The position numbers and the translations under genes are program-made. From positions 5,655,501 to 5,719,500 of the forward strand of contig NZ_AP017928.1 of the NCBI RefSeq assembly GCF_003584645.1: a stretch of 64,000 bases of DNA, in the 5' to 3' direction. The notes beneath the pieces were generated by a model. It worked only from the letters and a program-made list of their open reading frames with translations. It searched no databases and was not told where the DNA came from. Below are positions 25,420 to 27,703 of this stretch, in pieces; the stretch's first letter is position 1, and the number at the start of each line of letters is the position of its first letter. The DNA comes from Methylocaldum marinum (lineage in GTDB: Bacteria; Pseudomonadota; Gammaproteobacteria; Methylococcales; Methylococcaceae).

Positions 25420-26121
25420 ATGAACAAGTCCTCCAATACGAATGCAATGAGCTTTGCTGAAGTGCTTCGGCAGCTTCTGAATCCTTTGGCCCGTTATCTG
25501 GTGTCGAAATGTCAAAAGGTCTACTTTCGTGCCGTGGAATCGGCAGGGCACCATAAGCGCGATATCCTCGTCAGTCGTGTGGAGAATGCAAGGGATAGCC
25601 TGGAAGAAGCGAAGGAGCAGTTTCAGAGCGCTCTGGATAAGTTTAGCGCACTCACGGATTTTCAGGGCGGCGAACTTGAGGACATGTACCGGCAGATAAA
25701 AGTCGAGTTTGATTACAGCAAAGCCAAGGCTTTAGCCGTCAAGGACCGCATAGCCGCGGTCCAGGATGTAGCCGAGGCGCTTTTTGCGGAATGGGAAGAA
25801 GAGTTGGAGTTGTACACGAGCCGCAGTCTCCGAAGCAGCAGCAGGCAAAAGCTCAAGCTGACTCAGCAGCACTATGGACAATTGATTTCGGCGATGCGTC
25901 GGGCCGAGGGCAAGATCGAGCCGGTTTTGAGCGTATTCCAAGATCAAGTGTTGTTTCTGAAGCATAACCTCAACGCAAAGGCGATTGCATCGCTGGAGCA
26001 TGAATTGGCAGCGATGACCGTTGGCGTTGCAGGGTTGATTACGGCTATGGAACGTTCCATAAACCGTGCGAATGATTTCGTGTATTCCCTTAATGGTCAA
26101 AAAGTGCTTCCCGCTGGTTAG
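25420..26121 (+). CDS. DUF2959 family protein
   Basis: A 233-residue, mostly helical and probably coiled-coil protein. The conserved-looking stretches HKRDILVSRVENARDS, EEAKEQFQSALDKFSAL, VQDVAEALFAEWEEELE, MRRAEGKIEPVLSVFQDQV and FLKHNLNAKAIASLE match DUF2959, a proteobacterial family of unknown function. Many members carry an N-terminal lipoprotein or signal sequence; here the N-terminus (MNKSSNTNAMSFAEVLR) shows neither. A GTG three codons upstream (25411) is the alternative start; neither has a good Shine-Dalgarno. Confidence 0.8.
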   Translation: MNKSSNTNAMSFAEVLRQLLNPLARYLVSKCQKVYFRAVESAGHHKRDILVSRVENARDSLEEAKEQFQSALDKFSALTDFQGGELEDMYRQIKVEFDYSKAKALAVKDRIAAVQDVAEALFAEWEEELELYTSRSLRSSSRQKLKLTQQHYGQLISAMRRAEGKIEPVLSVFQDQVLFLKHNLNAKAIASLEHELAAMTVGVAGLITAMERSINRANDFVYSLNGQKVLPAG

Positions 26122-26266
26122 TGCACCATGGTGGGGCGATTTCGCGGGACATTCTTTGGTTGTGGCGGTGAGTCTCCAGATAGCAGTCGACATCGAGACA
26201 TAAGGATCGTCCCTGTCTTGACCTTGCTTAGATTCATTTTTCTGGGTATTGTTTTAATTGCAACAA

Positions 26267-26283
26267 AGTGTTGCTTTGGTGCA
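26267..26283 (+). promoter_or_regulatory. Possible weak NtrC half-site
   Basis: The right half GGTGCA (26278-26283) is perfect while the left half is poor. Its centre lies 31 bases, about three helical turns, upstream of the strong site centre, the same arrangement as the paired NtrC sites before E. coli glnA. Confidence 0.4.
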
Positions 26284-26297
26284 ATTAATTGGGAATT

Positions 26298-26314
26298 AGC
26301 ACCGCAATGGTGCA
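26298..26314 (+). promoter_or_regulatory. Predicted NtrC (NRI) binding site
   Basis: AGCACCGCAATGGTGCA matches the NtrC consensus TGCACY-N5-GGTGCA at every fixed position but the first. It is centred about 86 bases before the transcription start expected from the sigma-54 element downstream, a usual distance for an enhancer. Confidence 0.7.
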
Positions 26315-26364
26315 TGTTTCGTCCCGGTCGGCACATAAGCGGTTGAGTATGCTTGGTGTTTGGT

Positions 26365-26381
26365 CTGGTATGGAATTTGCG
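26365..26381 (+). promoter_or_regulatory. Predicted sigma-54 promoter
   Basis: CTGGTATGGAATTTGCG has the GG-N10-GC core (GG at 26367-26368, GC at 26379-26380) and matches YTGGCACG-N4-TTGC at most positions. It predicts a start near 26392 and a 30-base leader before the porin ATG. Confidence 0.65.
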
Positions 26382-26422
26382 TTAAGGCTGTCGTTCCAGA
26401 AAACAGACCAGAAGAGATTAGT

Positions 26423-27703
26423 ATGGCGAAGAATTCACTCAAGATTAGAATGGGGCGCGTGACTTTCGGTGTTTTTGCAGCGATTTTTGGCGCCGCGGCC
26501 GAAGCCGAAGAGGCAAGCGAACCCACGGGGTTGCTGGGGTCTCTGGAGGCCGATGTCAATGAGACCCAATTCATGAAAAATTTGGGGCTGCAATTTGGCG
26601 GATGGATCAATGCCGGTATCACGTACAACGCAAACGAACCTGCCGGCCGATTCAACGGTCCGGTAACGTTCAATGATCGCGCTTCCGAATTTCAGCTGAA
26701 TCAGCTTTATTTTTATCTGCAGCGGCCGGTGAATACGGAAGGAGACTCCTGGGATTTCGGCGGGCGCTTCGACTTTATGTTCGGTACCGATGCCCAATTT
26801 ACCCAAGCGGCTTATGGTCACTGGGATCAGCGCCTGATCAACGATCAACGCTTCTATGACATTGCGTTGCCTCAGGCCTACTTCGAAATTTTTGCGCCGT
26901 TTGGTAATGGCATCACAGCGAAGATCGGTCACTTTTACACCATTATCGGTAACGAAGTGGTAACGGCGCCGGATAATTTCTTCTACTCCCATGCTTATAC
27001 GATGCAGTACGGAGAACCGTTTACCCATACGGGCGTGTTGTTGAGTTATCCGATCGATCAGAACTGGACGATTTCGGGGGGTGGGGTGACTGGAAGCGAG
27101 ACCGCCGGCTGGGATGGCGGTTGGGATAAGGGGCTCGGTAACTGGGCGTTTCTCGGCGGTGTAACTTGGACCAGTATCGACGAAGGTACTTCCGTGGCTT
27201 TTAGCGCCACCAGCGGCGAGATTTCCGAGCAAGACTCAAATAATTGGAGCATGTACAGCCTGGTTATCAAGCACGACATCATAGAAGGCCTGCACTACAC
27301 CTTCCAGCATGACCACGGGTGGGCAACCAGTGTTGTTGATGCAACAGATCGTGCAGGCAGCAATGGTAGGGATGCGGAATGGTATGGGATTAATCAGTAC
27401 CTCACCTACGACATTAGAGACGATCTTGCCGTGGGACTCCGTGCTGAATGGTTCCGAGATGACGATGGTTTCCGTGTTCTTTCCCCAATTAGAGGTCCTT
27501 TCGCACCTCCGGCATCAAGCTATTATGCCGTCACGGCGGGTTTAAACTGGAAGCCGGTGAATTGGCTGATGGTGCGGCCGAGCGTTCGGTATGATTGGGC
27601 TGACAAGGCGGACGCTTATGACAATGCCGGTGGGGCGGCAGGCTTCATCGGCAAGAAGGGCGATCAATTCCTTTTTTCTACCGACGTAGTCATAACGTTC
27701 TAA
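26423..27703 (+). CDS. Outer-membrane beta-barrel porin, BBP2/OmpL-like
   Basis: A 426-residue exported protein: signal peptide (about 1-26, ending GAAAEA), then alternating aromatic beta-strands (for example GLQFGGWINAGITYNA, FQLNQLYFYLQRPVN, FDFMFGTDAQF, WLMVRPSVRYDW) and a C-terminal strand ending in Phe (LFSTDVVITF), the signal for barrel insertion. It resembles the putative beta-barrel porin-2 family. The solute is unknown. The ATG at 26423 begins a proper signal peptide. The upstream NtrC and sigma-54 elements suggest expression under nitrogen limitation, so a nitrogenous solute (ammonium, urea, nitrate, amines) is an inference. Confidence 0.83.
   Translation: MAKNSLKIRMGRVTFGVFAAIFGAAAEAEEASEPTGLLGSLEADVNETQFMKNLGLQFGGWINAGITYNANEPAGRFNGPVTFNDRASEFQLNQLYFYLQRPVNTEGDSWDFGGRFDFMFGTDAQFTQAAYGHWDQRLINDQRFYDIALPQAYFEIFAPFGNGITAKIGHFYTIIGNEVVTAPDNFFYSHAYTMQYGEPFTHTGVLLSYPIDQNWTISGGGVTGSETAGWDGGWDKGLGNWAFLGGVTWTSIDEGTSVAFSATSGEISEQDSNNWSMYSLVIKHDIIEGLHYTFQHDHGWATSVVDATDRAGSNGRDAEWYGINQYLTYDIRDDLAVGLRAEWFRDDDGFRVLSPIRGPFAPPASSYYAVTAGLNWKPVNWLMVRPSVRYDWADKADAYDNAGGAAGFIGKKGDQFLFSTDVVITF

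Follow-up and report, generated by a model that had tools for sequence, protein, structure and literature searches.

Textbooks cover AmtB and its regulation by GlnK, and, in the enteric model, glnA and glnK are expressed from sigma-54 promoters with paired NtrC sites. To our knowledge, the passage of ammonium and other small nitrogen compounds across the outer membrane at limiting concentrations has hardly been studied, and for BBP2 the only designation is that of a "putative" porin family. In the anammox planctomycete Kuenenia stuttgartiensis, the BBP2 porin KSMBR1_3177 is strongly upregulated under ammonium limitation and has been proposed as an entry route for ammonium (PMC7438415). In Flavobacteriales and marine viruses, a glnK-amtB-ompL cluster that includes a gene for an OmpL-like porin has been described (PMC8115048). 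In Herbaspirillum seropedicae, the nlmA-glnK-amtB operon is NtrC-dependent and induced by nitrogen limitation (PMC3023670), and FmdC of Methylophilus methylotrophus is a porin for amides and urea (PMC10781810, PMC5877670).

Here, we describe a BBP2-type outer-membrane porin gene in a 64,000-nucleotide stretch of the Methylocaldum marinum genome (hereafter, the window), preceded by NtrC and sigma-54 promoter elements. We consider it likely that this porin is NtrC/sigma-54-dependent, is part of the core response of Methylococcales methanotrophs to nitrogen limitation and admits small nitrogen solutes, ammonium being the best candidate. With KSMBR1_3177, it has in common the BBP2 domain and, on this reading, the tie to nitrogen limitation, whereas neither an NtrC/sigma-54 promoter nor gln linkage is given in the passage on the Kuenenia gene. 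A porin gene adjoining glnK-amtB is shared with the glnK-amtB-ompL cluster, in which, however, the porin gene lies downstream of amtB and, in the excerpts of that paper, no NtrC/sigma-54 promoter is described. The likeness to nlmA-glnK-amtB, an NtrC-dependent pairing of an envelope protein gene with glnK-amtB, is drawn at the level of the operon; NlmA is called a membrane-associated, probably periplasmic protein of unknown function (PMC3023670). FmdC, a nitrogen-controlled methylotroph porin that feeds a nitrogen-solute transporter, is encoded within a formamidase operon and is compared with the BBP2 porin here by description. The initial annotation of this locus knew of no description of nitrogenous-solute uptake for the porin family, a statement that the Kuenenia porin and the glnK-amtB-OmpL-like cluster qualify. 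For methanotrophs, a search of the open-access literature found no description of an NtrC/sigma-54-controlled BBP2 porin. The promoter type and the porin family are both known, and their combination and genomic linkage appear to be undescribed in methanotrophs.

The porin (426 aa) is encoded at positions 26423..27703 on the plus strand of the window, and its prior assignment to the BBP2 type was confirmed by a match to the full Pfam profile PF07642 across residues 56-426 (339 bits against a cut-off of 26.2; E = 3.3e-101). The protein contains an N-terminal signal-like sequence and a C-terminal Phe, and its AlphaFold2 model is a beta-barrel of about 16 strands (pLDDT 76, pTM 0.77), for which the top folds retrieved by Foldseek are general porins such as PorB, Omp32, DcaP, and OprP/OprO; at a pLDDT of 76, the solute cannot be read off the pore. 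A sequence search of the PDB yielded no solved relative. The best-matching sequences come from Methylocaldum sp. 14B (88%) and other Methylococcales. In the window, the neighbors of the porin gene encode a DUF2959 protein and a ferritin-like protein. The DUF2959 gene, located upstream, is transcribed in the same direction and ends at 26121, so that the intervening 300-bp gap belongs to the porin.

Within this gap, on the plus strand, an NtrC-type site, AGCACCGCAATGGTGCA (26298..26314), whose position is conserved in relatives, is followed by a sigma-54 -24/-12 element of the GG-N10-GC form, TGGTATGGAATTTGCG (26366..26381), which is a conserved island in the genus. Each has a single mismatch to the respective consensus (TGCACC-N5-GGTGCA for NtrC and TGGYAYRN4TTGCW for sigma-54), with both motifs assessed by simple consensus scores rather than trained matrices. 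The sigma-54 element lies 42 bp before the ATG at 26423, and transcription would be expected to start near 26392. The GGTGCA half-site (26278-26283) belongs to a 17-bp frame centered at 26275, 31 bp from the center of the main site at 26306; given that the remainder of this frame is degenerate (5 mismatches), "half-site" is the appropriate term. The NtrC site, the half-site, and the sigma-54 element had been pointed out in the initial annotation and were confirmed, apart from the distance of about 75 bp assigned to the interval between the NtrC site and the sigma-54 element, which is approximately 67 bp from center to center. The half-site is part of a longer conserved block, ATTGCAACAAAGTGTTGCTTTGGTGCAATT (26257..26286, plus strand). 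An alignment of four upstream regions from the genus Methylocaldum shows three conserved islands: this block (ATTGCnACAAAGTnTTGnTnTGGTGCA), the palindromic NtrC site, and the sigma-54 element. The block also contains the dyad GCAACA-AAG-TGTTGC (26260-26274), which overlaps the half-site region and may be a third NtrC site or a site for another regulator. A similar sequence, TTGCAAATAAGTTGTTGC, is found upstream of glnA in the same genome. An additional NtrC-like sequence, TGCACCATGGTGGGGCG (26122-26138; 2 mismatches), directly follows the DUF2959 stop codon and precedes the main site by about 175 bp.

Conservation in relatives, the check proposed along with the initial annotation, was assessed for a cassette defined as a sigma-54 element with a score of at least 5 and an NtrC site with at most 3 mismatches located 55-125 bp upstream. 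The cassette was detected upstream of 67 of the 105 related porins, compared with 5 of 548 other genes of the same loci and none of 105 shuffled porin regions, with the proviso that the scanned loci are kin and not statistically independent. These loci span Methylocaldum, Methylococcus, Methylobacter, Methylomonas, Methylovulum, Methyloglobulus, Crenothrix, and others. The architecture is conserved across Methylococcales, the opposite of the refuting outcome named in the initial annotation. A sigma-54 element reaching the score of 5 is present in 90 of the 105 porins, and 53 of these 90 sigma-54-anchored regions contain a pair of NtrC sites with at most 7 summed mismatches, against 1 of 450 shuffles. 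The spacing within the pairs peaks at 31-32 bp (29-32 bp in 37 of the 53), and the start of the proximal site falls for the most part within -80 to -77 or -70 to -68, two positions separated by one helical turn. The window gene falls within a 102-row clade (SH-aLRT 82) of a tree of 120 porins, and the sigma-54 element is present in most rows of that clade. The Methylobacter orthologues (L047, L048, L051, L056, L058, L081, L095) retain a strong element, TGGCAYTTTAYTTGCW; in most of them, no good NtrC palindrome lies within 160 bp of this element, and in some an NtrC-like site occurs about 200 bp upstream of it. One Methylocaldum-like porin locus (L041, DYIL01000088.1; 77-80% identity) comes from a record labeled Methyloversatilis universalis, which by genome kinship belongs to the same genus as the window and therefore is probably misnamed or misbinned.

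The gene neighborhood of the orthologues points to the same response. When the ORFs of about 81 porin loci were clustered, with names given from sequence recognition and inter-locus BLAST rather than from a curated scan, the commonest neighbors were glnA (57), glnK (42), amtB (42), ntrB (15), and ntrC (14). In most Methylococcales, the porin gene either diverges from glnA or immediately precedes it, with glnK-amtB as the usual neighbors. The divergent arrangement occurs in 51 loci, with the two genes mostly 220-520 bp apart; in the common order, glnK-amtB follows the porin gene on the same strand and glnA is divergent, and in Methylomonas, amtB and glnK are divergent from porin-glnA(-ntrB-ntrC). 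The orthologue in Methylocaldum and Methylococcus has lost its place in the gln cluster and yet retains the NtrC/sigma-54 promoter, which separates ownership of the promoter from linkage. In the window genome, glnA-ntrC is 0.64 Mb away from the porin gene, and the retention of the promoter at this distance indicates that the sites serve the porin rather than glnA. The possibility that they belong to a divergent glnA was rejected for this genome, glnA being distant and the upstream DUF2959 gene co-directional. Among the glnA upstream regions of relatives, few (4 of 72) contain the cassette in the direction of glnA. Taken together, the conserved sites and the usual glnA, glnK, and amtB neighbors support, at the level of sequence, the prior suggestion that the porin is wired to nitrogen limitation.

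The regulatory components are encoded in the same genome, which contains rpoN, glnA, and an NtrC that shares 71% identity with the NtrC of a Methyloglobulus relative. Its glnK-amtB promoter comprises the NtrC sites CGCACCGTTATAGTGCA and CGCTCCGTAATGGTGCA, 29 bp apart, followed by TGGCACAAGTTCTGCT, and, as judged from these predicted sites, is a same-genome positive control with the layout of the porin promoter. The porin promoter and the glnA/glnK promoters have in common a -24/-12 element preceded by two NtrC sites with a spacing of about 30 bp, and differ in that the former drives an outer-membrane porin and has, in the window genome, only a half-site at the distal position.

Related porins were also sought beyond the order. 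A sample of 369 genomes of the class gave strong subfamily matches almost exclusively in Methylococcales, the single exception being G421. This gammaproteobacterium of another family encodes a 42%-identical subfamily porin (L245; G421:C1:972508-984635), with no gln neighbors and no sigma-54 element at the locus, possibly a result of horizontal transfer. Among the weak matches (24-29% identity), seven genomes contain a BBP2 porin gene immediately upstream of glnK-amtB, and such distant porin-glnK-amtB loci (L247, L248, L249, L220-L224, L227, L232, L239) come from several gammaproteobacterial genera outside Methylococcales. All three distant loci whose upstream regions were inspected encode BBP2 porins according to Pfam and contain NtrC and sigma-54 sites: perfect TGCACCATCGTGGTGCA and TGGCTTGGAAATTGCT in one, and paired GCAC...GTGC-type sites with TGGCATGGGATCTGCW in the other two. 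The window genome itself encodes a second BBP2 porin (L122:4382-5683; G000:C1:4396381-4397682; also L252), 57% identical to the first, which faces, across 518 bp, genes for an SsuA/NMT1-type ABC transporter, UAAP1, urea carboxylase (TIGR02712), and allophanate hydrolase (TIGR02713). The shared gap contains NtrC-like sites with 3 mismatches each, spaced by 31 bp, and sigma-54-like elements in both orientations; although these motifs are weaker than those of the window porin, their presence makes both BBP2 porins of this genome look nitrogen-controlled, and the adjacent genes hint at urea or guanidine as the solute of the paralogue. Tentatively, and with somewhat less than even confidence, BBP2 porins with NtrC/sigma-54 promoters and glnK-amtB or glnA linkage could form a widespread class partnering AmtB, with a sister branch for urea or guanidine and the window porin as the Methylococcales member.

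Several other explanations of the promoter and of the porin have to be weighed. Taken singly, the motifs invite the suspicion of chance: sigma-54 matches as good as the one found number 4 in the window against 2.6 expected, which is the chance level, and NtrC-like sites with at most 2 mismatches number 6 against 2.3 expected, the site at 26298-26314 being the sole one with at most 1 mismatch. An NtrC core followed after 45-75 bp by a sigma-54 element, however, occurs once in the window and in none of 100 shuffles; it is also found once in the whole 6.09-Mb genome, which was searched by patterns rather than by a full PWM scan, and the reversed control pattern gave 0 matches. A relaxed genome-wide pattern requiring W after TGC gave 0 matches, because the last base of the porin site is G and the pattern does not accommodate the glnK pair. 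Given that the combined pattern was framed after the site had been seen, conservation in relatives is the stronger evidence; with the islands in the genus alignment, the pairing of the sites, and the enrichment of the cassette upstream of porins over other genes, it led us to reject functionless chance matches as an exceedingly improbable explanation. That the sigma-54 element is real but is served by another enhancer-binding protein with a similar palindrome is conceivable in a genome that encodes about twenty sigma-54 activator-like proteins, all the more as the conserved dyad GCAACA-N3-TGTTGC overlaps the distal half-site; the same palindromes in the glnK-amtB promoter of this genome and the linkage of porin orthologues to glnA and ntrBC make this quite improbable.

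With regard to function, a porin under the same NtrC/sigma-54 control could mainly admit organic compounds (urea, short amides, guanidine, or amino acids), in the manner of FmdC, rather than ammonium. The paralogue facing the ABC transporter, urea carboxylase, and allophanate hydrolase cluster speaks for such a role, but the genes linked to the orthologues of the window porin are glnK-amtB and glnA rather than urea or amide genes. The FmdC-type context (formamidase and the FmdDEF transporter) is absent at the window porin, the window genome has no match to formamidase (PF03069), and none of the 14 formamidase (FmdA) loci searched contains a BBP2 porin of this subfamily nearby. We therefore regard a chiefly organic substrate as rather unlikely. 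An improbable alternative casts the porin as a general or structural envelope protein, such as an S-layer anchor, with levels that track nitrogen status for other reasons. In Methylomicrobium album BG8, the highly expressed porin Metal_2279 accompanies shed S-layer units, its expression almost ceases in an acid-adapted strain in which the S-layer has been lost, and its gene lies three locus tags from that of NtrC (Metal_2282) (PMC13274458). By position, Metal_2279 probably is the orthologue of the window porin, the order in Methylomicrobium sp. RS1 being ntrC-ntrB-glnA-porin. Against a structural role, the S-layer gene is mutated in the same acid-adapted strain, and the linkage to glnK-amtB extends to other gammaproteobacterial families.

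Returning to the preferred reading, a porin of the nitrogen-limitation response, we infer NtrC binding, induction, and the solute from the promoter and the gene neighborhood. When fixed nitrogen is scarce, NtrC would be phosphorylated and would bind the site at 26298-26314 and its partner around 26275. These lie about 86 and 117 bp before the expected start, within the range of about 70-140 bp looked for in NtrC palindromes. Bound NtrC would activate sigma-54 RNA polymerase at 26366-26381. The increased amount of porin would render the outer membrane more permeable to small nitrogen solutes, alongside the AmtB and glutamine synthetase response. The solute would most likely be ammonium destined for AmtB, with urea, amides, and guanidine-like compounds as alternatives; ammonium is small and passes through general porins, so that it is not evident why a dedicated channel would be required. 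Also counting against this reading are the Methylobacter orthologues with few good NtrC palindromes near their sigma-54 elements, the half-site at the distal position in this genome, and a paper on the nitrogen-source transcriptome of Methylococcus capsulatus, whose text does not mention porins. The suggestion of the initial annotation that a nitrogenous solute is taken up fits the regulation and the gene neighborhood, the solute itself being the conjectural part.

Most likely, then, ammonium or another small nitrogen compound enters across the outer membrane through this porin under nitrogen scarcity. A porin wired to the glnA/glnK/amtB/ntrBC response across an order of methanotrophs provides a testable function for the BBP2 family and bears on how methanotrophs compete for nitrogen and, through this, on methane oxidation in soils, lakes, and bioreactors.
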